Positions 2,138-22,046 of a DNA stretch of 23,845 bases are shown piece by piece. The notes under the pieces are model-generated. The model saw only the letters and a program-made list of their open reading frames with translations, searched no databases and was not told the DNA's origin. The DNA comes from a virus. Every line of letters starts with the position of its first letter. Position 1 is the stretch's first letter. Made by a program: the position numbers and the translations under genes. Where the stretch lies: IMG/VR virus record IMGVR_UViG_3300020186_000089, positions 1 through 23,845 of that record; one strand, 5' to 3'.

Positions 2138-3244
2138 ATGCCAGATATAGGTGTGTGTGATGCTATAATCGCGTCAGTAGAGATGGCTTCTCAAATACAG
2201 AAGCAAATGATACCTTCAGTCGGCGGGCTACGCGCTTCGCTCGACCCTCAAAATATGCTTGCAGTAGATGTAATCTCGCCCGAACGCGGAGATGGCTTTT
2301 ACAGCTCGGCGACCAGCGGAGGAACACCCCGTGTTAGATTACGATTCTATCCGCCTCAGGTCGGAGGCGTAGACAGCTCATATACCTGTGACGCGACGGC
2401 GGACGGCGAACCTTCAGAGGTTAATTTCGATCTAACGCTTCAAAGCGTGGTTAAAGGCAAGATATCAAAACGCCGACTTCGTACCTTGTGCGAAGACGCG
2501 AATAAATTAATGCCGAATTGGCTAAACGGAATAAACACCCCGATGTCGTTTCAGATGATGGAGGTGCGTAATATAATAATGTCAAAAATGCGCGCAATGC
2601 TAACCGACATTAACGCGAAAGTAATGGCAAGGTATTTAGCCAGCTTTGGTAAAAATGCACGCACAGGAAACGTTACGTCGCAATCCGTAAACCTGCTAAA
2701 CACAACCAGTGGTGGTGTAAGGTCAGATGGCTGGGCGCAAGTCGTGACGGACTTTATGATAAACGAGTTTGTCGGAACACCCATCGTTATCGGAGGCTCC
2801 CTCCCATCTCGTTTTGCAACGGGAATGGGCTGGTCTGGGCTTGCGGACACGGGTATAGACTACGGGACGGTCGAAAGCAAAAACGGAATGAACTTCTATT
2901 TTGACAACACTGCTGACAGCGTTTTTGGAGCAGGGCAAATGGCTGTTCTTGCACCGGGTATGACCAAATTTGTTACAAGAACCAAATTTATCGGCACCTT
3001 CGCTGGGACACATGGTGTTTCAGAATACGGCACTATGACGCTCCCAGAGTTTCCGGGCATAACCTTTGATATCCAAATCAAAGAGTTGGATTGCGACCCA
3101 GATTTTGGCAATATGCCTTCGTACACGTACATAATTTCACTTGATTACGGCTTGTTTGTAATGCCGTCAATCTACGGAGTTGGCGACGTAAAAGACGGCG
3201 TTAATGGTGTGCTTAGGTACACTGGCGTAGCGGTAGCGGCTTAA
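2138..3244 (+). CDS. Probable major capsid protein
   Basis: The 368-residue soluble protein has the length and composition of a major head protein: rich in Gly, Ser, Thr, Asp and small residues, no membrane segment, with a helical stretch near residues 130-175 and beta-rich flanks. Codon use is visibly more G+C-rich than in neighbouring genes, as in a highly expressed product. It stands alone as one transcription unit: promoter-like box and folded leader upstream, strong terminator immediately downstream. No other gene in the window fits this role, while portal, MuF, scaffold and terminase are all present. An HK97-like fold is expected from that partner set but I cannot see it directly. A less likely alternative is a major tail protein. 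Confidence 0.7.
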   Translation: MPDIGVCDAIIASVEMASQIQKQMIPSVGGLRASLDPQNMLAVDVISPERGDGFYSSATSGGTPRVRLRFYPPQVGGVDSSYTCDATADGEPSEVNFDLTLQSVVKGKISKRRLRTLCEDANKLMPNWLNGINTPMSFQMMEVRNIIMSKMRAMLTDINAKVMARYLASFGKNARTGNVTSQSVNLLNTTSGGVRSDGWAQVVTDFMINEFVGTPIVIGGSLPSRFATGMGWSGLADTGIDYGTVESKNGMNFYFDNTADSVFGAGQMAVLAPGMTKFVTRTKFIGTFAGTHGVSEYGTMTLPEFPGITFDIQIKELDCDPDFGNMPSYTYIISLDYGLFVMPSIYGVGDVKDGVNGVLRYTGVAVAA

Positions 3245-4045: not shown

Positions 4046-4483
4046 ATGCCTGTTGAAATTCTTAGCTACCTCGACCAGCACGTTCTTGCGTTACAGAAAC
4101 TTAAAGACGCAGACAAGGTTTTAAGACTTGCTTGCGTGAACGGGGTAGCTATAATCTTGCACAGGATACAGCAAAAAGGAAAGAATAGTGCCGACACAAG
4201 TATGGCGGAGTATTCAAAAAAATACAAAAGGCGCAGAGCCAAAAAAGGATTGCAAGTTGAACAAGTCGACCTAACATTCACTGGGCAATTAACTCAAAAC
4301 TTTAAGGTAATCCCTCTCGTAGGGATGGCTTATGGTTTAGGGTTCGATAACGAACTTGCAACTGCAAAAGCGGGGTGGGTCGAGGAGCAGTACGGCGAAA
4401 TATTCACGCCGACAAAAAAGGAGAATGAAACCATAATAGAATCGATACAAAACGCGGTTCTTAAAATATTAAACAAAAGATAA
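4046..4483 (+). CDS. Candidate neck / tail-completion (virion morphogenesis-like) protein
   Basis: The 145-residue protein has a basic cluster (KYKRRRAKKG, residues 59-69), then V-D-L-T-F-T-G (74-80), a short beta-rich part, and W111-x-E-E-x-Y-G-x-I-F (to residue 120). This order resembles small phage virion-morphogenesis or head-tail joining proteins, in which a conserved LTG step and an aromatic ERYG-IF-like motif occur near the C-terminus. The product would act in joining tail to head or finishing the tail. It sits among small genes after the capsid, consistent with a neck role. The family match is from memory of motif layout, so I am only moderately sure. Confidence 0.5.
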   Translation: MPVEILSYLDQHVLALQKLKDADKVLRLACVNGVAIILHRIQQKGKNSADTSMAEYSKKYKRRRAKKGLQVEQVDLTFTGQLTQNFKVIPLVGMAYGLGFDNELATAKAGWVEEQYGEIFTPTKKENETIIESIQNAVLKILNKR

Positions 4484-4487
4484 GACA

Positions 4488-5192
4488 ATGAGTTACGCCC
4501 TTCTGCAAGAAGCATTAAATAAACTTATAGGCGCGCACCTGCCCGAGCCACTAATTTGTGATGGAATTGTAGGCAAGAAAACCACACTCGCATACGACAC
4601 TCTTGCAAAAGCAAGTGCGGAAGTATTTAAAAAAAAGGGGTATGTTTGGAGCGCGGAAGCAAACCTAATCGCTATTCGCGTAAAGACCGACAGGCAGTAC
4701 AAGTTTAGCAATAGGTTTGTAGATATTGGCTTAATAACAATAGGTGATGTTGAAATATGTTTTCCGATGTCGAGCGTAGCAGGTTTGTACGGAAAAGGAA
4801 ATGTATTGTCGCCGATTTGGATAGATGGCGTGTACGGCGTTGGAGTTGTAAAAGAAGGGCAATATAAAGGCGCGTACAGCCTAAATAGTGCGTGGTGGAG
4901 CGGTCTAAAATTCTTGATGCAAGTTGAGGACTTTGACTATTATAGGGACGGGAATTTAGACACGAAGCTTAATAGACTAAAGGTCTATAGAGGCAAAAAA
5001 GGCTTTAATTTTCATAGCTGGCGAGGCTTTGTAGGCGCGTTAGTAAATAACTTATCGCAGGGCTGTATGGTAACAGAACAGGCTGTATGGACAAACACAG
5101 TACTGCCTTTATTAGAAAGGGTTGCGGTTATCTACAAAAACAAGATAGATTTCACACTTATAAACGAGGACGATTTTTATAAAGTTAAATGA
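4488..5192 (+). CDS. Putative endolysin: peptidoglycan-binding domain plus YkuD-like domain
   Basis: The 234-residue protein starts with a peptidoglycan-binding type 1-like repeat (about residues 4-39: LLQEALNKL, then CDGIVGKKTTLAY). The C-terminal part has H176 and S190-Q-G-C193, 17 residues apart, matching the His...S-x-G-C catalytic layout of L,D-transpeptidase (YkuD)-like folds; the usual Arg after the Cys is absent. Bacteroidota phages often carry such a protein in place of a classical lysozyme. There is no signal peptide, so a holin would be needed for export, and several small membrane proteins follow directly. The likely role is attack on cell-wall peptide links at lysis; a virion-associated wall enzyme is the alternative. 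Confidence 0.6.
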   Translation: MSYALLQEALNKLIGAHLPEPLICDGIVGKKTTLAYDTLAKASAEVFKKKGYVWSAEANLIAIRVKTDRQYKFSNRFVDIGLITIGDVEICFPMSSVAGLYGKGNVLSPIWIDGVYGVGVVKEGQYKGAYSLNSAWWSGLKFLMQVEDFDYYRDGNLDTKLNRLKVYRGKKGFNFHSWRGFVGALVNNLSQGCMVTEQAVWTNTVLPLLERVAVIYKNKIDFTLINEDDFYKVK

Positions 5193-6544: not shown

Positions 6545-6571
6545 TGTTTTAAATAAAAATGCTTATCTTTG
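6540..6571 (+). promoter_or_regulatory. Strong Bacteroidota-type promoter for the SSB-like operon
   Basis: TTTG at 6540-6543, 20-base spacer, then TATCTTTG at 6564-6571 is a near-perfect match to the Bacteroidota consensus TTTG-N(about 20)-TAnnTTTG. Transcription would start near 6578, 15 bases before the ATG at 6593. The -7 box rules out the TTG at 6569 as the real start of the next gene. Confidence 0.8.
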
Positions 6572-6592
6572 CTTAAATTAAACAAAAGTAGT

Positions 6593-7096
6593 ATGAATAC
6601 GATTGAAGGAACAGTAAGCAGAATAACGGACGTTGAAACTGGGCTAAACAAGCTCGGAAAAGAGTGGCGCAAGCAAGGCTTCGCTATAAGGACGAATGAG
6701 CAATACGAAAAAACGATATACTTTCAGGCTTTTAACAAAGTCACGGAGTATATTGATAACCTGAACGTGGGCGACGACGTGGAAGTCGCGTTTTACGCAG
6801 AAAGCCGTGAGTACAATGAAAAGTATTACACGAGCCTAAACGCGGTTACGATAAAGGTGACAAGGGCTAATGCTAATGCAATAAAAGCCCTGCCGACTGA
6901 AACGGCGACGTTGCCAAAAAAAGAAGCTTTGCTAAAGCCCACACCTGAAGCGAATGCTACGTATGGCGAAATGGCTAAATTCTATCCGCTCAAGAAGAAG
7001 GAGTCGCCAAGTATTGAAACGCTGGCAATGCAAGACCTCGTAAAACGTGGATTAATACCTGCCTCACCAGATGAGATAGAAGACTTACCTTTTTAA
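6593..7096 (+). CDS. DUF3127-type single-stranded DNA-binding-like protein
   Basis: The 167-residue protein starts at the ATG at 6593; an in-frame TTG at 6569 lies inside the promoter. Residues 1-90 resemble the DUF3127 OB-like domain of Bacteroidota: I-x-G-T-V at 4-8, K-E-W-x-K-Q at 23-28, then F-N and ES-R-E-Y around 69-74. A flexible linker follows, and the C-terminus ends E-D-L-P-F, like the acidic SSB tail tip that recruits replication partners. The likely role is binding single-stranded phage DNA during replication or recombination. It is the first gene of a two-gene unit flanked by a promoter and a terminator, an early-style unit inside structural genes. Confidence 0.75.
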   Translation: MNTIEGTVSRITDVETGLNKLGKEWRKQGFAIRTNEQYEKTIYFQAFNKVTEYIDNLNVGDDVEVAFYAESREYNEKYYTSLNAVTIKVTRANANAIKALPTETATLPKKEALLKPTPEANATYGEMAKFYPLKKKESPSIETLAMQDLVKRGLIPASPDEIEDLPF

Positions 7097-8183: not shown

Positions 8184-9452
8184 ATGATAAAAGTAGAGTT
8201 ACCTATTCTGCACCCTGAGCAATTGCATTGCAAAAAAAACTCCAAGCGGTTTACTGTTTTAAACTGCGGTCGGCGGTTTGGCAAAACGACTCTCGCCATA
8301 GATTTGCTAATAAACGCTTCGAAGCAACCGCGCTATATTGCGTACTGCACGCCGACTTACAAGATGCTATCTAAGACGTGGCGGAGCGTTAAGGCGAGGC
8401 TAAGGAAAGCCAATATAATATTAGAAAAGAGCGAGGCGTTAAAGCAGATAATCCTTATAAACGGCACGATTATCGACTTTTGGAGTTTAGATAATGAAGA
8501 CAGCATAAGAGGCAATGCCTATCATTTCATAATAATTGATGAGGTCGCGATAATAAAGAACTTCCTTAACATTTGGAATAATAGTGTGCGCCCGTTGCTT
8601 GCCGATTATCAGGGAGGTGCGTGGTTCTTGAGTACACCCAAAGGATATTACAATGACTTTTATGAGATTTGCAAGATTGCGCAAGCGGAGGAAAACGAGG
8701 GCTGGGCATACTTCAAAATGCCGACCTCCTCAAACCCTAAAATACACCCTGCCGAGATTGAAATAGCAAGAAAACAACTGCCAGCTTCTGTTTTTAAGCA
8801 GGAGTACCTTGCCGAGTTCGTGAATTACGAAGGCAATCTATTTGCAGAAGCTTTTGATAAAGATAAGCACGTGTGCGAGGTTAAATACAACCTAAAAGAA
8901 AATATATACCTCTCCTTTGACTTCAACATAACAAACACGGCAATAGTTTTCCAAAGCTACGGTGGCTGTATTTATGCGTTAAAAGAGTATCATACCAAAG
9001 GCTGGGACTTGGAGAGTGTTTGCGATAAAATAATTGCCGACTATCCAAATCAAATCTATCAGGTTACGGGTGACGCGAGTGGGAACGCTGGCTCTGCGTA
9101 CACAGCAGGAAACGTTAGCGCGTATCATCTAATAGTAAAATACTTCTCATTACTGTGGCGCAATACGGCAATTCCAAAAGCCAATCCCTCCCATTTAAAC
9201 AGCCGATTGCAAACCAACTATATGCTGTCGCAAACGGACGTAAAGATTGATAGCAATTGCGCGCTTTTAATAAAAGATTTGGAGATGGTTGTTACAAACA
9301 AGGCAGGCAAAATAGACAAGACCGACCCTACTCTAACCCACGCATTGGATTGTTTTAGGTATTATCTTTGGAACTATCATTACAAAGATTTCATAAATAA
9401 TATAATAGACAAAAGATTAGTAAAAAAAGATATAGAATTTGATGGATATTAA
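8184..9452 (+). CDS. Terminase large subunit (packaging ATPase-nuclease)
   Basis: The 422-residue protein shows the full set of motor motifs: Walker A G-R-R-F-G-K-T-T (29-36), Walker B F-I-I-I-D-E (115-120), coupling motif L-S-T-P-K-G (149-154). The RNase H-like nuclease domain follows with acidic residues D246 (SFDFN), D297 (TGDASG) and D389 (THALDCFRYY). It hydrolyses ATP to drive DNA into the prohead through the portal and cuts the concatemer. Length is normal for compact phage terminases. It follows the small subunit gene by 9 bases; a promoter for the next unit begins inside its last 20 bases. Confidence 0.95.
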   Translation: MIKVELPILHPEQLHCKKNSKRFTVLNCGRRFGKTTLAIDLLINASKQPRYIAYCTPTYKMLSKTWRSVKARLRKANIILEKSEALKQIILINGTIIDFWSLDNEDSIRGNAYHFIIIDEVAIIKNFLNIWNNSVRPLLADYQGGAWFLSTPKGYYNDFYEICKIAQAEENEGWAYFKMPTSSNPKIHPAEIEIARKQLPASVFKQEYLAEFVNYEGNLFAEAFDKDKHVCEVKYNLKENIYLSFDFNITNTAIVFQSYGGCIYALKEYHTKGWDLESVCDKIIADYPNQIYQVTGDASGNAGSAYTAGNVSAYHLIVKYFSLLWRNTAIPKANPSHLNSRLQTNYMLSQTDVKIDSNCALLIKDLEMVVTNKAGKIDKTDPTLTHALDCFRYYLWNYHYKDFINNIIDKRLVKKDIEFDGY

Positions 9453-9472
9453 AAATAAAATGCGTACCTTTG
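9438..9472 (+). promoter_or_regulatory. Bacteroidota-type promoter after terminase
   Basis: TTTG at 9438-9441 and TACCTTTG at 9465-9472 match the -33 and -7 consensus with a 23-base spacer. Transcription would start near 9479. The box overlaps the last codons of the large terminase. It drives either a small RNA ending at 9609 or, with read-through, the two SANT-like genes. Confidence 0.75.
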
Positions 9473-9495
9473 CATTACATAAAACCAAAAGTAAT

Positions 9496-9537
9496 ATGAA
9501 GAACAGAAAAGGATGTGGCTGTCGCAAGACTGCGTAA
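9496..9537 (+). CDS. Tiny ORF, 13 residues, Cys/Lys-rich (leader peptide candidate)
   Basis: MKNRKGCGCRKTA begins at an ATG about 17 bases after the expected transcription start and stops just after the GNRA-loop hairpin that its own codons encode. The CGC core is unusual for chance sequence. It could be a translated leader peptide controlling the hairpins downstream, a real micro-protein with a metal-binding or RNA-binding knuckle, or a chance frame within an RNA gene. Too short for family assignment. Confidence 0.35.
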   Translation: MKNRKGCGCRKTA

Positions 9538-9579
9538 CCTATGCTTTCCGAGAGCAACAGGGGGTTCATTTCATTTCGC

Positions 9580-9609
9580 ACGGCACTGCAATTTTGTAGT
9601 GCCGTTCTT
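9580..9609 (+). terminator. Strong terminator of the short unit
   Basis: A 12-bp stem with one G-U pair joins ACGGCACTGCAA (9580-9591) and TTGTAGTGCCGT (9594-9605); TCTTTT follows. It lies about 100 bases after the expected start of transcription, so most transcripts from this promoter should end here. Confidence 0.85.
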
Positions 9610-9641
9610 TTAAAACAAAAACAAAACAAAAACAAAAATAT

Positions 9642-9824
9642 ATGCAAAATTACGAATGCACAAATTACAGTAAGCCGTGGACAGCCAAAGAGCTTACGAC
9701 GCTACGCGAGCTTAAAGAGTCAGGAAGCTATAGCGCGCACACCATTTCAAAGACGCTAAACAGGTCGCTGGGTTCCGTTCGCGGTCAGCTGTATATTCAA
9801 CGTAAGCACGGAAACATAAAATGA
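9642..9824 (+). CDS. Small SANT/Myb-like DNA-binding protein
   Basis: The 60-residue protein is almost only a three-helix SANT/Myb-like domain: W14-T-A-K-E-L-x-x-L-R-E-L-K, then a second helix with HTISKTLNRS and a recognition helix GSVRGQLYIQRK. The same pattern recurs at the C-terminus of the next protein, so they appear to be paralogues. It likely binds DNA as a small regulator, or assists packaging given the terminase genes upstream. Its stop overlaps the next start (ATGA). Confidence 0.7.
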   Translation: MQNYECTNYSKPWTAKELTTLRELKESGSYSAHTISKTLNRSLGSVRGQLYIQRKHGNIK

Positions 9825-10288
9825 AAAACAGCCAAGTAAAACACAGTGATGCGTGGTGGCGCGAGGAGCTTATGCAAAAGCCTAATAGCGAAATAACAAG
9901 GCGCAGAATGCCGTGGTGGGTTAAGGCATTGATGGACGACGCACACCGCAAATATCCAAAAGACTCGCTTAGGTTTTGGATTAAAGAACTCGTGTTCAAT
10001 AACGATAAAGACTACGCAAATAACAGCACTGCTGGAATGATTAAAGCGCACATGTACAGCCTCAAAAACGAATACCCAAAAGACACGAGGCTATGGCGAT
10101 TAAGAAACGAAATAGATGCGATTGTTTTTTGCTGGGCGTGGTCAGGCAAAGAAATTGCCGAGTTACGCAGTCTTAAAAAAAACGGCTACAGCTGTCGTGA
10201 AATCGGACACAAGCTAAACAAGTCCTATAAGTCGGTTTACCATCAGATTACACGCATAAGCGAGCGAGTGCCTATCAACAAATTCTAA
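9821..10288 (+). CDS. SANT/Myb-like DNA-binding protein with N-terminal extension
   Basis: The 155-residue protein carries a C-terminal SANT/Myb-like domain (about residues 105-148: WSGKEIAELRSLKKNGYS, then EIGHKLNKSYKSVYHQI) matching the previous gene. The N-terminal part is Trp- and Lys-rich, with two copies of Y-P-K-D-(S/T)-x-R about 39 residues apart, hinting at an internal duplication. Likely a sequence-specific DNA-binding protein; target unknown. Translation is coupled to the previous gene (ATGA) and a terminator follows, so the two form one unit. Confidence 0.65.
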   Translation: MKNSQVKHSDAWWREELMQKPNSEITRRRMPWWVKALMDDAHRKYPKDSLRFWIKELVFNNDKDYANNSTAGMIKAHMYSLKNEYPKDTRLWRLRNEIDAIVFCWAWSGKEIAELRSLKKNGYSCREIGHKLNKSYKSVYHQITRISERVPINKF

Positions 10289-10294
10289 ACACGT

Positions 10295-10327
10295 CCCACC
10301 CCTATTTTATTAGCGGTGGGTGTTTTT
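10295..10327 (+). terminator. Rho-independent terminator before tail operon
   Basis: Stem CCCACC (10295-10300)/GGTGGG (10315-10320), which can extend inward by a few pairs, followed by TGTTTTT. It separates the SANT-like pair from the tail genes. No clear promoter lies in the 20 bases before the next gene, so read-through or a distant promoter must serve the tail genes. Confidence 0.85.
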
Positions 10328-10340
10328 CAATAACCAAAAA

Positions 10341-10685
10341 ATGAATGACATAAATTTTTATTCGCTTGCGTTTCTGTCCGCCTGCGTTTCAGTTTTTTTT
10401 AATTACACGCTAACCGAAAAAGCAATTTTTAGGAGATACTACCTTTTTCTTATATACTTGCGGTGGCGGGCGACAAAATGCAATAAAACAACGCATAAAT
10501 GGGTTGTTTACATAACACGCCCACTGGGCTTGTGTTTGTATTGCAACTGCACATGGGTAGCCTTAATAATTTACACAAACAAATATGAACACTTTCTTAA
10601 TTACGATTACTTTCTTAATCTTAGCCTCTTTATTGGGCTATCTTTTGTATTTACAAAATACATATACAAAACCATTGAAGATTAA
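10341..10685 (+). CDS. Membrane protein with CxxCxC motif
   Basis: The 114-residue protein starts at the ATG at 10341; a GTG at 10320 in frame lies within the terminator. Hydrophobic segments are at about 7-21, 33-42, 70-79 and 88-108, and C65-x-x-C68-x-C70 sits just before the third. I recall similar Cys-containing small membrane proteins placed upstream of the tail chaperone in Bacteroidota phages. Function unknown. Its last 101 bases overlap the next reading frame if that starts at its first ATG. Confidence 0.65.
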   Translation: MNDINFYSLAFLSACVSVFFNYTLTEKAIFRRYYLFLIYLRWRATKCNKTTHKWVVYITRPLGLCLYCNCTWVALIIYTNKYEHFLNYDYFLNLSLFIGLSFVFTKYIYKTIED

Positions 10686-11298
10686 TCCAAAATTTTTAGC
10701 TGTGCCTAAAAGTTGTGTTGAATTTGTCTTTGAGTGCGAAGGCATTAAATATTACAAATATACGGACGAGTTTAACCTGCCCGTAGAACGCTCCATGTCC
10801 GCGCTTGACATTTACGCAGAGCTTGACTTAAAGGTAAGCCACGAGTTTCTTAAAACGCACTGCCTCGCGATAAACGAAGCGATAAACAAAGGTCAGCTAA
10901 CCACAATAGCCGCGCTTAATCGCATACTTGAAAGCAACATAAACACAATAACAAATGTAGATTTGTTGTATAAATTAGCTTCTGTATTGTATTTTTGCGA
11001 AGCGGAAAACCCTAATGTTTACGACTACTCCACTGCGCAAAAAAAGATAGCAAGTTGGAAGCGCGAAAAGGATATGCACGCTTTTTTTTTGCAGATGCCA
11101 ATATCCGTTTATCTGCCCTCTTTCAATACCTCCGAGTTGAATTTGGAAGCCTATACCCTGCTTCAAAGAAAAGAGATGTTATCAGCATTGAAATTCCATT
11201 TGAGTTTGTTATCAGAAACAGATATAAGTCCCGAATTAAAGAGCGATTTAATTTATCGGATTACGGAATTAGAGAGTTTAACGAGTTCGGAAAATTGA
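10585..11298 (+). CDS. Tail assembly chaperone (G-like, unshifted product)
   Basis: The 237-residue protein lies directly upstream of the tape measure gene, the normal site of tail assembly chaperones, which coat the tape measure before tail tube assembly. A soluble core (INPKFLAVPKSCVEFVFEC, the region with DEFNLPVERS, and DLLYKLASVLYFCEAENP) fits a recurrent Bacteroidota phage family known to me by layout. The ATG at 10585 adds an N-terminal hydrophobic segment and overlaps the previous gene by 101 bases. A TTG at 10675 would give a 207-residue soluble protein with an 11-base overlap and may be the real start. A T9 slippery run lies at codon 166-168. Confidence 0.6.
   Translation: MNTFLITITFLILASLLGYLLYLQNTYTKPLKINPKFLAVPKSCVEFVFECEGIKYYKYTDEFNLPVERSMSALDIYAELDLKVSHEFLKTHCLAINEAINKGQLTTIAALNRILESNINTITNVDLLYKLASVLYFCEAENPNVYDYSTAQKKIASWKREKDMHAFFLQMPISVYLPSFNTSELNLEAYTLLQRKEMLSALKFHLSLLSETDISPELKSDLIYRITELESLTSSEN
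11082..11090 (+). promoter_or_regulatory. -1 ribosomal frameshift site (T9 slippery run)
   Basis: In the chaperone frame the bases read GCT TTT TTT TTG, so 11082-11088 is a T-TTT-TTT heptamer of the X-XXY-YYZ type; both tRNAs can re-pair after a slip of one base. T9 could also allow polymerase slippage. No strong downstream stem-loop was identified by eye. Confidence 0.6.
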
Positions 11299-11366
11299 CA
11301 ATTTACGAATATCATATATTAATTAGCGAGTTAAACAACAACGCGCAAAAAGCAAAAAACAAATAA
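11088..11366 (+). CDS. Frameshift extension of tail chaperone (GT-like, -1 frame)
   Basis: After a -1 slip on the T9 run (11082-11090), reading continues as FADANIRLSALF and runs 92 residues to a TAA at 11364-11366, five bases before the tape measure ATG. The shifted product would have about 260 residues from the ATG at 10585. The G/GT pair made by a -1 shift just upstream of the tape measure is a classic siphovirus arrangement. Both frames look like coding sequence over 11091-11298, and without the shift 72 bases would be empty in an otherwise packed operon. An alternative is an independent gene starting at TTG 11055. Confidence 0.6.
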   Translation, partial: FADANIRLSALFQYLRVEFGSLYPASKKRDVISIEIPFEFVIRNRYKSRIKERFNLSDYGIREFNEFGKLTIYEYHILISELNNNAQKAKNK

Positions 11367-11370
11367 GGCT

Positions 11371-14139
11371 ATGGTAGAGAATATTAAGATCGTTTATAGA
11401 GTAGATGACGCGCAGATTGATGCATTGCTAAAAAAGTTTAGCAATATATCTGCGGAGGAGCGCGAGCAGATAAAGCTAATGCTCCAATTGGATACGCAAA
11501 CAGCCACAACAACAAGGAACGCTGGTAAGAATTTTGATGGATTAAACAAAACAGTCGCTAACCTTAGAAATACGATTATCGCCGCTTTTGCGGTCGATAA
11601 AGTAATTAAGTTCGGTAGCGAGGTTATTGAAGTCGCTAAAAGATTTGAGGCAATGAACAACGCGATAAAATTCGCAAGCGGTTCGGCAGCAGAGTATCAA
11701 AAAAACACCCAGTTTTTGGGTGATATAACGAGGAAGCTTGGCATAGATTTAGAAAGCGCAAGCAAGGGCTTTAAAACAATTATGGCGAGCGCAAAGCCTG
11801 CGGGAATAAGCGCAGAAGAAACAAGAAGCATATTCGAAGGGATGTCAACTGCCATAAGCGCAATGGGCTTAAGTAGTCAAGACGCGGAAGGTACATTTCT
11901 TGCGCTGGGTCAAATGTTAAGCAAGGGAACTGTGCAAGCGGAGGAATTAAGAGGGCAAATCGGCGAGAGGATACCAGGTGCGTTTAATTTAGCCGCGCAA
12001 TCTATGGGTGTAACAACACGCGAACTAAACAAGATGCTTGAGCAAGGGCAAGTAGTAGCGAATGATTTCGTCCCAAAATTCGCAAAAACACTGCAAGAGA
12101 ATTTTAGCCCTGCGCTAAAAGAAAGCGCGAATAGCTTAAATGCTGTTTCCTCTCGCGCCGATAACGCTTACAAATCGCTACAGCTAACGTTTGGTGCCGC
12201 AGGGCAGGGAACGTATAAGCTTACGTTAGACATCATAACACAGGTCTTAGAAGGTATGAACAAGTTCATCTCTGGCAATAAAAAAACAGTCAGTAGCGTG
12301 GATTTGGTAGTTGATGCTGTGGAAAAAGAAAGGACTGAATTAAACACATTGGTTAAGTCTATACGAAACCAAAACATTTCAAACGAGGCGCGGACAGAAT
12401 TGATAAACGAACTGAATAAAAAGTTTCCTGAATTTGCGAAAAGCATAGATGTTGTAAAAGCGAGCGAAAACGAATTAGAAGGCGCGCTGAAGGGAGTTAA
12501 CAAACAGTTTGATTTGCAAGTTTTTAATGTAGCAAGTGCGGAGATAAAAAAAAACTACCAAAAAGAAAACAACGACCTCATTAAAAAAGAGGCGGAGCTA
12601 ATAAAAGAAGTGGGTAAGGTAAGTGCTGGCAATTACGAAATACCTTTATCGGGAGGTATAAAAGGCGCGTTAGAGTATCTACAAGGTGGGAGAAAGATAA
12701 CTGGAGAGGGTGAAATAGATGAAAGGGTGGCTCAAATTTTTGGCTATATAGAAAAAATAAAGCGACAACGCGTGCAATTGCAAATAGATGAAGAACAAGA
12801 GCTTAAAGTTTATTTAGATAGGCTTAAAAACAAGGGCTTAACCGTACAGGACGCAAACGAAAAGGAGTTAAGAGAAAGAAAGAAAAACAACATACAAATA
12901 GGGAAAGTAGATAAAAAAGCGCAGGACGACTTAGCCAAGCAACAGGCGGAGTTTGCATTGCGTGAGTTAGAAGCACAACAAAAACTCGCCATAGATAAAA
13001 TAAAAGCGCAGATTGATTTTAACAATCTTGTACTAAAAAACGACGAGACAAACAACTTTGAAAAGATTGAAATAATTAGGGCTAACCAAAGACTTGAAAG
13101 CGATTTGCTTACGTTGAAAAACGAAACCAACAAAAAGACTTACGAAATAGATAAAGACAATATAATACAAGTAAAAAAGCTAACCAAAACGGAGCTTTTG
13201 AACATAGATAACGAAACAAGCCAAGCGCGCGTCTTATTAGAACAGAAAACAAATAACGAGCTAAAAGAGCTTGATATGGGCTATATTGCGGATGGCGCGG
13301 AAAGAGCGGAAAAAAGAGCCAAAGATGCGCTCGATACGAGGTTAGAAATAATGAAAAAAGAGCGCGCCATGTCTATGGACTTTATAAATGCGCAAATAGA
13401 AGATGAAAAAAGAAAAGAGGCGCAAATAGCAAAAATAAAAGAAGCGTCGTACAACTTAGGCGTTGCACTAATAAATGGACTGTTTGATATAAACAAAAAC
13501 AACACGGAAAAAGAATTAACCGAACTGCAAACAAGCAAAGATTACGAGTTGCAACTTGCTGGAGACAACAAAAACAAGCAAATAGAAATAAACCAAAGGT
13601 TCGCAGAAAAAGAGCGGGAGCTAAAGCGCAAGCAGGCTTCGGCAGATAAAGATAAGGCTATCTTTGATATCTTATTGCAAACAAGCGTAAACGTGGTTAA
13701 AGCGTATGCTACCCTGCCACCTACAAATTTAATTTTGGCTGGCTTTGCAGCTGCAATCGGGCTTTTACAAGTAACCGCTGTAAGCTCGCGCCCTATCCCA
13801 AAATTTAGGGGTGGCGTGGATTATTTAAATAGCCAAGCGACAGGTAAAGATGCGGACGGCGTTATAATAGAAGCGCATTTAGGAGAGCGCATTTTACCAA
13901 AACACCTAAATGATAGAATAAAACATATACCTAATCATTTAATCCCACAGCTTGTTTTAGGCAATATAAATAATAATAAAACGCAGGAGTTAAACGTTGT
14001 TGGTTTAGGAGAACAAATAACGGACGCGATAAGCAAAATACCTTTAAATAGCATAAACCTTAACGAAGATGGTTTTGAGAAATACATTAGCCAAAAAGGC
14101 AATGAAACAAGGATATTTAATAAAAACACAAGCTGGTAA
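11371..14139 (+). CDS. Tail tape measure protein
   Basis: The 922-residue protein has the tape measure N-terminal domain (about 80-240) with the hallmark E191-E-L-R-G-Q-I-G-E-R-I-P-G-A204. Long Lys/Glu-rich coiled-coil regions follow (about 330-480 and 490-760), then a hydrophobic stretch near 765-805, as these proteins carry for membrane passage of DNA. It sets tail length and is ejected with the genome. At about 0.15 nm per residue the tail would be near 138 nm (inference). It starts 5 bases after the frameshifted chaperone frame and its TAA abuts the next ATG. The opposite-strand frames in it are coiled-coil shadows. Confidence 0.95.
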   Translation: MVENIKIVYRVDDAQIDALLKKFSNISAEEREQIKLMLQLDTQTATTTRNAGKNFDGLNKTVANLRNTIIAAFAVDKVIKFGSEVIEVAKRFEAMNNAIKFASGSAAEYQKNTQFLGDITRKLGIDLESASKGFKTIMASAKPAGISAEETRSIFEGMSTAISAMGLSSQDAEGTFLALGQMLSKGTVQAEELRGQIGERIPGAFNLAAQSMGVTTRELNKMLEQGQVVANDFVPKFAKTLQENFSPALKESANSLNAVSSRADNAYKSLQLTFGAAGQGTYKLTLDIITQVLEGMNKFISGNKKTVSSVDLVVDAVEKERTELNTLVKSIRNQNISNEARTELINELNKKFPEFAKSIDVVKASENELEGALKGVNKQFDLQVFNVASAEIKKNYQKENNDLIKKEAELIKEVGKVSAGNYEIPLSGGIKGALEYLQGGRKITGEGEIDERVAQIFGYIEKIKRQRVQLQIDEEQELKVYLDRLKNKGLTVQDANEKELRERKKNNIQIGKVDKKAQDDLAKQQAEFALRELEAQQKLAIDKIKAQIDFNNLVLKNDETNNFEKIEIIRANQRLESDLLTLKNETNKKTYEIDKDNIIQVKKLTKTELLNIDNETSQARVLLEQKTNNELKELDMGYIADGAERAEKRAKDALDTRLEIMKKERAMSMDFINAQIEDEKRKEAQIAKIKEASYNLGVALINGLFDINKNNTEKELTELQTSKDYELQLAGDNKNKQIEINQRFAEKERELKRKQASADKDKAIFDILLQTSVNVVKAYATLPPTNLILAGFAAAIGLLQVTAVSSRPIPKFRGGVDYLNSQATGKDADGVIIEAHLGERILPKHLNDRIKHIPNHLIPQLVLGNINNNKTQELNVVGLGEQITDAISKIPLNSINLNEDGFEKYISQKGNETRIFNKNTSW

Positions 14140-19431: not shown

Positions 19432-20223
19432 ATGTACAATTGCGAAACATTAAATAGACACGCACTGCCACCCTGCGACGGAGAAGAGAAATACAACAAA
19501 ATCGTTACGGCAATTATAATACTGCCGAACGCTACAATAACGAACTACGCAGACAACTCGCAGTGGATTGCGGGAATTGCGGACGGCTCAATACGCGTAA
19601 TTAAAAAGACGCAAGGACTCTATGATGGTGGCACACCAACCTTTGCCCCGGGGTTTGGCAATAAGTTAGAGCAGGTTACGGGTGTGAAACACAGTGCTAA
19701 CTTTATGACAAAGTACAGAAGCCAAAACTACGGGTTTTTTAATCAACTCAAGGAGCTTGATATAAAGAGCTTCGGATTTGTAACTGGCGATAACGACAGC
19801 TTGCAAATCGTTGAGAAAAACGTTACGCTTCACTCAAAAGCTCCCGTAACAGATGACCTTGCCGCAGAGAGAAAGTGGGAGGTAACGGCTACGTGGTCGG
19901 ATATAAATATGCCCGTTCCGTACAACACACCTCTCGCCATTTTGGCTGTAATTCCCGCGCCTGTCGCGCTCGAAGAGTCAGCGGTCAGTGCTACAGGGTT
20001 TACTGCAAATTGGCAGTTAGTGGTTGGCGCAATAGGTTACATTGTGCAAGTAAGCACTACAAGCAACTTTGCGGTTATTTTGCAAGAACACGAAACCGCT
20101 ACTGTGCTTTTAAGACTAATAACGGGCTTAACGACAGGCACAACGTACTACTACCGAGTTGTTGCATTTAGCTTCAATGAGGAGAGTGGGCTGTCAAACA
20201 CCATTGTAGCAATAACCTCGTAA
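19432..20223 (+). CDS. Structural protein with C-terminal fibronectin III domain, tail tube candidate
   Basis: The 263-residue protein has a N-terminal domain (1-165) with no named match and a C-terminal fibronectin type III/Ig-like domain (about 175-263): PAPVALEESAV, then TGFTANW, then ITGLTTGTTYYYRVVAFS. Such added domains are typical of major tail tube or head-decorating proteins and bind cell-surface sugars weakly. No other tail tube gene is visible in the window, so I offer this as the candidate tube protein, but a fibre protein is equally possible. It is the last gene of the tail operon; a terminator follows. Confidence 0.6.
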   Translation: MYNCETLNRHALPPCDGEEKYNKIVTAIIILPNATITNYADNSQWIAGIADGSIRVIKKTQGLYDGGTPTFAPGFGNKLEQVTGVKHSANFMTKYRSQNYGFFNQLKELDIKSFGFVTGDNDSLQIVEKNVTLHSKAPVTDDLAAERKWEVTATWSDINMPVPYNTPLAILAVIPAPVALEESAVSATGFTANWQLVVGAIGYIVQVSTTSNFAVILQEHETATVLLRLITGLTTGTTYYYRVVAFSFNEESGLSNTIVAITS

Positions 20224-20324: not shown

Positions 20325-22046
20325 ATGATAACCAAGCAAACAATAGAGTCGTTTTTTGAGAGTGGGCAAAGCACTAAAAAAGACACTTACATAACCGACA
20401 TTTCAAAAAGGGTTAGAGTGCATAGTGAAGGGTTATATCCTGAAAAGCTAATAGACACATCTCGCCCAAACGAGCCAGATGTTATAAAACAATACAGAAA
20501 AGATGTGTACAAATCGTACACAGAAGGGTATTTCAATAAGATATTGGTTCTTTTGCAAAAGATAGCCAAAAGCGAAGATTGGAGTATTGAATACAAGAAA
20601 TCAGAAGGCGCGGTAGCAGAAACCGAAACCATAGAAAAATACCTAAAAGATGACTTCCCTTATTTTGACAGCTTAGAAAACTACGCGTTTTCAATATTGT
20701 TAAAAGACTTATTAGTCGACCCAAACGCAATTATTTTGGTGCTACCTCTTTCTTTAGAAGTTAAAGAAAATGAGTACTACAAACCGTTCCCTTCGGTTTA
20801 TTCCTGCGAAAATGTATTATACTTTGATGCTGATTTGCTTGTTGTTAGAACAAGCGAAATAGGCTCAATAGAAACATATAAATTTATAGACAACGACAGT
20901 ATATTTATCGTAACGAAAGACAAGACGCAGGCGGGAGAAAGCAATATTTCTTTTTTGGAATACAAAAACATTGTTGGAGAAATACCCGCATTTAAATTAG
21001 GCGGGCTAATAAAAAAAACCATTGAAAAAAACAATGGGTTAGAGTTTGTTTATGACAGCTTTATAACGCCATGCTTAAACAGCTTTGATGAAGCGGGCAG
21101 GTGTTACAGCGACCACCAAGCGAATTTAGTGCAAAACATTCACCCAGAAAAATACATTTACCAAATTGGCGAGTGCAAGACTTGCGCAGGGAACGGCAGA
21201 ATAAGACACGGCAATTTAGGCACGGAAGATTACGAAGTCTCTAATTGTAAGGATTGTAAAGGTAGCGGATCTAAATCAAGCCCTTTTGGGATTCACGAGA
21301 TAAATATAGAAAACATTCCAGGAGGTGGCGTGTCAGTACCCGCACCGCCAATCGGTTATGTTTCAAAACCGATTGAGTTAATCCACGCGCTAAAAACCGA
21401 GATAGAAGAGCAATGTAGGGCAGGGCTTAGTGCATTAGGAGTTGAATATTTACACGAGTCTCCGCTTAATCAAAGCGGTCTTGCAAAAGAGTATGACAAA
21501 CAAGAGGTTGATACATTTGTTAGCAGTGTTGCAAGGCACTTTGTGTTAAATATAATAAAGCCGATAATTTGGTACACCTCAAAGTGGAGGTACACCCTTT
21601 CACTACCAATAAAAACAATTGAAAGCAACAACCCTACAGTAAAAGTGCCAAAAAGGTTTAACACGCTTACAAGCGCGATAATAGGCGAGAGGTTAAGGAG
21701 TGCGATAACCAATAATTACAGCTTTATTATTCGCAACGCCTTAGAACTGCAATACATAAAAAGCGAGTTTGGCGAAGATAGCGACCAGCTAAACTTAGCT
21801 AAAACCGTGTTTCAAATCGACCCGTTGGTGGGCAAAACAGAAGATGAAAAAATGACCATGCTTGCAAATGGCGGAGTTTCTAAGTTAGACTACATTGTTT
21901 CTTGTAATTTAAAAAAGTACGTAACGCTCGCGCAAGATGCAACTAAAAACTTCTTTGACTTAGATTACAAAAAGAAGATAGAAGTTATTTATAAATATGC
22001 TGGCGAAACATTAAATGAACTCCCCTCTCCTATTCCGCTACAGTAA
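20325..22046 (+). CDS. Portal protein with DnaJ-like zinc-finger insertion
   Basis: The 573-residue protein has the size, acid/amide-rich helical sequence and gene neighbours (MuF-like, then scaffold) of a phage portal. The portal ring forms the DNA channel at one head vertex and docks terminase. Residues 284-315 hold C284-x-x-C287-x-G-x-G and C308-x-x-C311-x-G-x-G, two CxxCxGxG units as in the DnaJ zinc-binding domain, expected to bind one zinc ion. A Gly/Pro-rich loop (PGGGVSVPAPP) follows, which could be the wall or tunnel loop. The start is in an A-rich context; the stop overlaps the next ATG by one base (TAATG). Confidence 0.8.
   Translation: MITKQTIESFFESGQSTKKDTYITDISKRVRVHSEGLYPEKLIDTSRPNEPDVIKQYRKDVYKSYTEGYFNKILVLLQKIAKSEDWSIEYKKSEGAVAETETIEKYLKDDFPYFDSLENYAFSILLKDLLVDPNAIILVLPLSLEVKENEYYKPFPSVYSCENVLYFDADLLVVRTSEIGSIETYKFIDNDSIFIVTKDKTQAGESNISFLEYKNIVGEIPAFKLGGLIKKTIEKNNGLEFVYDSFITPCLNSFDEAGRCYSDHQANLVQNIHPEKYIYQIGECKTCAGNGRIRHGNLGTEDYEVSNCKDCKGSGSKSSPFGIHEINIENIPGGGVSVPAPPIGYVSKPIELIHALKTEIEEQCRAGLSALGVEYLHESPLNQSGLAKEYDKQEVDTFVSSVARHFVLNIIKPIIWYTSKWRYTLSLPIKTIESNNPTVKVPKRFNTLTSAIIGERLRSAITNNYSFIIRNALELQYIKSEFGEDSDQLNLAKTVFQIDPLVGKTEDEKMTMLANGGVSKLDYIVSCNLKKYVTLAQDATKNFFDLDYKKKIEVIYKYAGETLNELPSPIPLQ

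Follow-up and report, generated by a model that had tools for sequence, protein, structure and literature searches.

A probable -1 frameshift with a long dual-coded overlap ahead of the tape measure gene in a family of Bacteroidota phages

The window, by which we mean the whole stretch of DNA analysed here, is an IMG/VR virus record of 23,845 bases. Directly ahead of its tape measure gene lie two overlapping reading frames, G and T, and the features on which our argument depends are as follows.

8184-9452, + strand: terminase large subunit gene (PHROGs phrog_2, E 7.3e-36), upstream of G in relatives too
10585-11298, + strand: G gene, frame 0, 237 codons plus stop, with homologues in 137 distinct loci
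11082-11090, + strand: T9 run, in the phase GCT TTT TTT TTG CAG (GCT TTT TTT TTG occupies 11080-11091)
11082-11088, + strand: predicted slip heptamer U_UUU_UUU, with an in-phase U_UUU_UUN in 135 of 136 loci
11088-11366, + strand: T tail, frame -1 after the slip, 92 codons plus stop
11089-11295, + strand: dual-coded segment, 207 nt, analysed by a substitution test on 45 pairs and an open-frame simulation
11371-14139, + strand: tape measure protein gene (Pfam TMP_3, E 1.9e-34; PHROGs tape measure, E 3.3e-59)

The first ATG of G lies at 10585 and is a putative start. Between 11089 and 11295 the same bases can be read as the G tail (69 residues, frame 0) and as the first part of the T tail (frame -1), after which the -1 frame crosses the end of the G ORF without a stop until the TAA at 11364-11366, leaving four bases before the ATG at 11371 of the tape measure gene, which encodes a protein of 922 aa. 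The T-only stretch, 11296-11363, is kept as T frame in relatives. A slip would yield a predicted GT fusion of 260 aa, against 237 aa for G, with residues 1-168 common to both. A preliminary description of this DNA had proposed a -1 frameshift on the T9 run and about 207 dual-read bases, and both proposals hold: the run lies in the phase GCT TTT TTT TTG, and beyond it the -1 frame has no stop until after that of G, while the 69 codons that follow U_UUU_UUU account for exactly 207 nt (11089-11295).

The order of genes across 8184-11298, which is common to relatives, is terminase, small ORFs, G/GT and tape measure, not tube, G/GT and tape measure. That is, in the window and its relatives alike G/GT does not lie between tube and tape measure genes, and has the terminase large subunit gene and small ORFs upstream of it. 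The only candidate for a tail tube gene in the window (19432-20223) is far from G and is identified mainly by its Ig/fn3 part. Elsewhere in the window, a single-strand DNA binding protein (6569-7096; PHROGs E 4.1e-18), whose start is listed as TTG, is encoded between the structural genes and the terminase, and a portal-like protein (20325-22046) contains an inserted Cys-rich CxxCxGxG stretch at about residues 281-317 that resembles a DnaJ zinc finger (Pfam E 0.0019).

The T9 at 11082-11090 is the sole T9 on the + strand of the window, the other two matches being on the - strand. Its rarity was considered as evidence and dropped, given that three T9 runs were found on both strands against 9.2 expected from window composition, so the run is not unusual for that composition; it is the phase, place and conservation of the run that count, not its mere presence. 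A second heptamer, U_UUU_UUG at 11085-11091, overlaps the first and lies one codon after it. No stimulatory RNA structure, an element that phage tail genes often lack, is conserved downstream of the slip across 56 lineages, where folding z-scores approximate those of control windows, and a search of Rfam returned a single match, far below its threshold.

A tblastn search of 50,697 named phage records with the window G and five queries from relatives found no G homologues. Profile scans of viral contigs reported 247, 252 and 224 relatives, and the best 80 per scan were kept; removal of duplicates left 137 distinct loci, which we examined, and the collections contain more. Nearly all 137 are metagenomic phage contigs. 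Cellular matches comprise four contigs, two titled Bacteroidota or Bacteroidetes bacterium, one Candidatus Azobacteroides and one Proteiniphilum, and 393 genomes from the order of the Proteiniphilum host gave no match beyond the Proteiniphilum genome itself. A separate scan of viral contigs with the tape measure protein found 72 loci, about half of which have a G homologue. The phages that carry G and T constitute a large and almost unstudied family of Bacteroidota phages.

Alignment of homologues across the junction, as the preliminary description had suggested, revealed that 135 of the 136 assessable relatives keep the slip heptamer (one locus, L018, is cut by a contig end and was left out), each of these 135 having an in-phase U_UUU_UUN and a -1 frame that continues without a stop beyond the end of G. 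The last base of the heptamer is U in 124 of them, C in 10 and A in 1, and the -1 frame overlaps the G ORF by 117-255 nt (median 216). Exactly nine Ts in the phase of the window occur in 115 of 137 loci; three loci have T8, five have T9 one phase over (a change that leaves the total at nine Ts in four of the 56 lineages), ten have T6C, and one (L266) has T6A, such that its heptamer comprises tandem Phe/Leu codons, whereas other sites are Phe/Phe. The one exception is a T10 run in a prophage of Proteiniphilum sp. X52 (L107/L153), where G and T form a single frame and the sequence that normally gives the G tail falls in +1 (at about 4380-4690); the variant may be genuine, or it may reflect decay of the prophage or an error in the homopolymer count. 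Two outcomes had been named in advance as counting against a frameshift, homologues with a single frame and a T run varying in length without regard to frame. A single-frame homologue does exist, namely the T10 prophage, while the remaining assessable loci keep two frames; and the run does vary in length (6, 8, 9 and 10), but the phase of U_UUU_UUN is kept in all cases except that one.

The heptamer begins with the wobble base of the preceding codon, and this base is T in all 56 lineages (defined at <80% identity), despite that codon specifying any of nine amino acids (Asp, Ala, Gly, Thr, Ser, Phe, Val, Asn or Pro). Under background codon usage this invariance has a log10 P of -22.5, a figure that is not an exact probability since the lineages share ancestry. 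As the wobble base lies upstream of the shift, the second frame cannot be what holds it, and on this pattern the slip site itself is under selection.

A test for constraint in both frames, also suggested in the preliminary description, was made by codon position on 45 ungapped pairs, each sequence being used once, although the pairs are not fully independent phylogenetically. Differences at G codon positions 1, 2 and 3 were.077,.030 and.308 upstream of the overlap and.060,.094 and.113 within it, while in the T-only stretch the values by T position were.063,.041 and.192. The ratio of overlap to upstream rates was therefore 0.77 at position 1, 3.13 (95% CI 2.41-4.55) at position 2, which is the third position of T in the overlap, and 0.37 (0.31-0.41) at position 3, where the rate was lower in all 45 pairs. 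This flattened pattern is present in each third of the overlap, and conserved G residues have identical codons more often there than upstream (a share of 0.91 vs 0.70). The fall to 0.37x at position 3 combined with the 3.1x rise at position 2 indicates purifying selection in each frame. Sequence comparison thus shows that selection maintains the slip site as well as the -1 frame and the G tail. Simulation gives a further measure of how readily such frames stay open: when synonymous codons in the window were redrawn with the G protein fixed, the -1 frame stayed open in 0.19% of draws, and the converse, in which the T protein was kept constant, left the G frame open in 0.08%. Of 134 relatives, none has the third frame open throughout the overlap.

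A programmed -1 ribosomal frameshift in a putative tail assembly chaperone gene is, in our judgement, the likely basis of this arrangement. Phe-tRNAs on UUU UUU (11083-11088) would now and then shift back by one base on U_UUU_UUU and pair anew, and these ribosomes would continue in the -1 frame, with the majority of ribosomes presumably making G (237 aa) and a minority GT (260 aa). The element common to the sites is U_UUU_UUN in one register, which fits ribosomal -1 slippage on a heptamer of the type X_XXY_YYZ. Several findings count against this reading: most lineages have exactly nine Ts, more than one heptamer requires; one relative has T10 and fused frames; no stimulatory RNA structure is conserved; the terminase gene, not a tube gene, is the upstream neighbour; and G and T match no characterised chaperone in sequence or fold. 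The main rival is that RNA polymerase stutters on the T9 run and some transcripts gain one U, from which GT would arise by ordinary translation, with identical products and dual coding but by a different mechanism; a T10 run would still give both products, and the prevalence of exactly nine Ts extends to the four of 56 lineages in which the run is shifted by one phase. Moreover, T-run avoidance appears at length nine in many bacterial genomes, nine being the length at which such runs become slippage-prone (PMC1088944). However, a homopolymer of about 8-9 or more is a property of the T9 majority, including the window, and not of all members, given that the loci with T6C (10) and T6A (1) keep the arrangement with runs too short for polymerase stuttering as usually described. 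These lineages argue against transcriptional slippage being required, as does the single register of the shared heptamer, and the eighth and ninth Ts are also held by a Phe codon of the T frame. Transcriptional slippage in place of a ribosomal shift is unlikely, but it could partly supply GT, and the preference for nine Ts leaves room for it in T9 lineages.

Explanations that dispense with slippage fare far worse. T might be translated as a separate gene from its own start inside G, and the -1 ORF does have a TTG at 11055, where the preliminary description began its interval; yet this codon is merely the first start-like codon after a stop and not a plausible start, it lies upstream of the slip, where relatives show no sign of second-frame coding, and the T tail of the window has no ATG. 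A separate start also leaves the conserved in-phase U run and the invariant wobble base unexplained, and we consider it highly improbable. Least probable of all for the window is a miscounted homopolymer, whereby the true sequence would be T10 in a single fused frame and the G tail accidental. One assembled bacterial genome (L153) does carry a T10 that fuses the frames, but 135 distinct loci across many metagenomes share the layout with two frames, some of them at sites that have no long run, and the G tail past the T run is under selection; for the family, these comparative data refute a miscount.

The assignment of a tail chaperone role to G and GT draws on position and frameshift, read in the light of what is known of this class of genes, and not on homology. 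The preliminary description had called them a G/GT chaperone pair, and with that qualification its interpretation is supported: the gene is immediately upstream of the tape measure gene in the window, with the same layout in relatives, and the two ORFs, joined by a predicted programmed frameshift, recur in 135 of 136 loci. G and T have no significant match to a characterised chaperone among protein families, nor did anything significant emerge when G and T were searched by profile against solved structures, when the fold of G was compared with PDB and BFVD, or when that of the T tail was compared with BFVD. One match of a T tail to phrog_441 (E 0.012) was not used as support, being found for only 1 of 15 T tails. 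Both tails are modelled as helical domains (mean pLDDT 86.8 for the G model and 83.8 for the T tail model). If G and GT act as in lambda, G would bind the tape measure and the T tail would recruit the tail tube. Unlike in lambda, each product would end in a C-terminal helical domain that the other lacks (69 residues in G, 92 in GT), although most of the bases encoding the two are shared. The modelled window G also begins with a long N-terminal hydrophobic helix (residues 2-26; 10585-10662) that is not obviously shared by the N-termini of relatives, and in view of the model the true start of G may be downstream of 10585.

In lambda, a single gene upstream of the tape measure gene gives rise by -1 frameshift to a longer minor product with a T domain (PMC5009743), and the position of the window genes and their predicted frameshift are hallmarks of this lambda-type G/GT arrangement (PMC5009743). 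The lambda slip falls near the 3' end of G, such that GT includes nearly all of G, whereas the window slip falls 69 codons before the G stop, so that the G tail and T tail are alternatives. The slip site of lambda is GGGAAAG, unlike the U-rich site of the window. Phage P2 provides a second comparison, its E and E+E' proteins being produced by a -1 shift on TTTTTTG ahead of the tail length gene without downstream RNA structure (PMC3091744), and the window and its relatives likewise have no conserved structure of this kind. In P2, however, the shift is annotated at 19685 and E ends at 19705, an overlap of about 20 nt compared with 207 nt in the window, and no sequence similarity was detected. 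In PaMx73 and D3112-like phages, a T TTT TTC slip is predicted for ORFs 35-36, 43 codons before the stop (PMC4378225); the overlap is shorter than that of the window, and in that paper we came across no test for dual coding. JBD25 has a tape measure protein of the same broad class as that of the window. Chaperone frameshifts of the same gene class have a mean distance from slip to in-frame stop of 26 nt in the SEA-PHAGES set and 36 nt in the Xu 2004 set (PMC10885494), as against 117-255 nt here. Hence frameshifting of this kind in tail genes is known, from lambda G/GT and P2 E/E', and what is new is the length of the overlap and the dual coding seen within it. Among phages with related tape measures, which we read for overlaps of this kind, one, Stenotrophomonas phage Bhz60 (L314; 417-1108), may have another long overlap: GGGAAA occurs in phase in the gene that precedes its tape measure gene, 115 nt ahead of the stop, and the -1 frame, which is not annotated as joined, stays open to four bases before the tape measure start.

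How the overlap arose may be reflected in its codon usage. Within the overlap the codons of the T frame resemble background, and in 41 of 54 lineages they score above those of the G frame, whose scores are similar to those of the unread third frame. This difference suggests that the G tail was overprinted on T, but the effect is small, the lineages are not independent, and the pattern is only suggestive. We accordingly put forward with some hesitation, as a proposal falling a little short of probable, that G and GT, rather than being short and extended forms of one protein, carry exclusive C-terminal domains and that the G tail, overprinted on an older T frame, has its own role in tail assembly. 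If so, a stretch of about 200 nt became a frame-swapped domain, the G version of which acquired a role of its own. The family provides a large natural set (137 distinct loci, with more in collections) of a known mechanism in extreme form, in which roughly 40-85 codons give two apparently stable domains from the same bases. It makes testable whether a phage G protein needs a tail of its own, something to which the lambda model gives negligible weight, and also by what route overlapping coding comes about and is kept. Predictors that expect a slip near the stop codon are likely to miss the whole family.

Individual relatives show further variation around the slip site. In one (L307, with G near 2423-3061), the -1 frame continues without a stop into the tape measure frame as far as the contig end, and a shift would produce a fusion of G, T and tape measure. 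Three others (L259, L260 and L270) have AGGAG-T9-ATG at the slip site, resembling a ribosome binding site placed nine bases ahead of an ATG in frame with G, and from this motif internal initiation is conceivable there.
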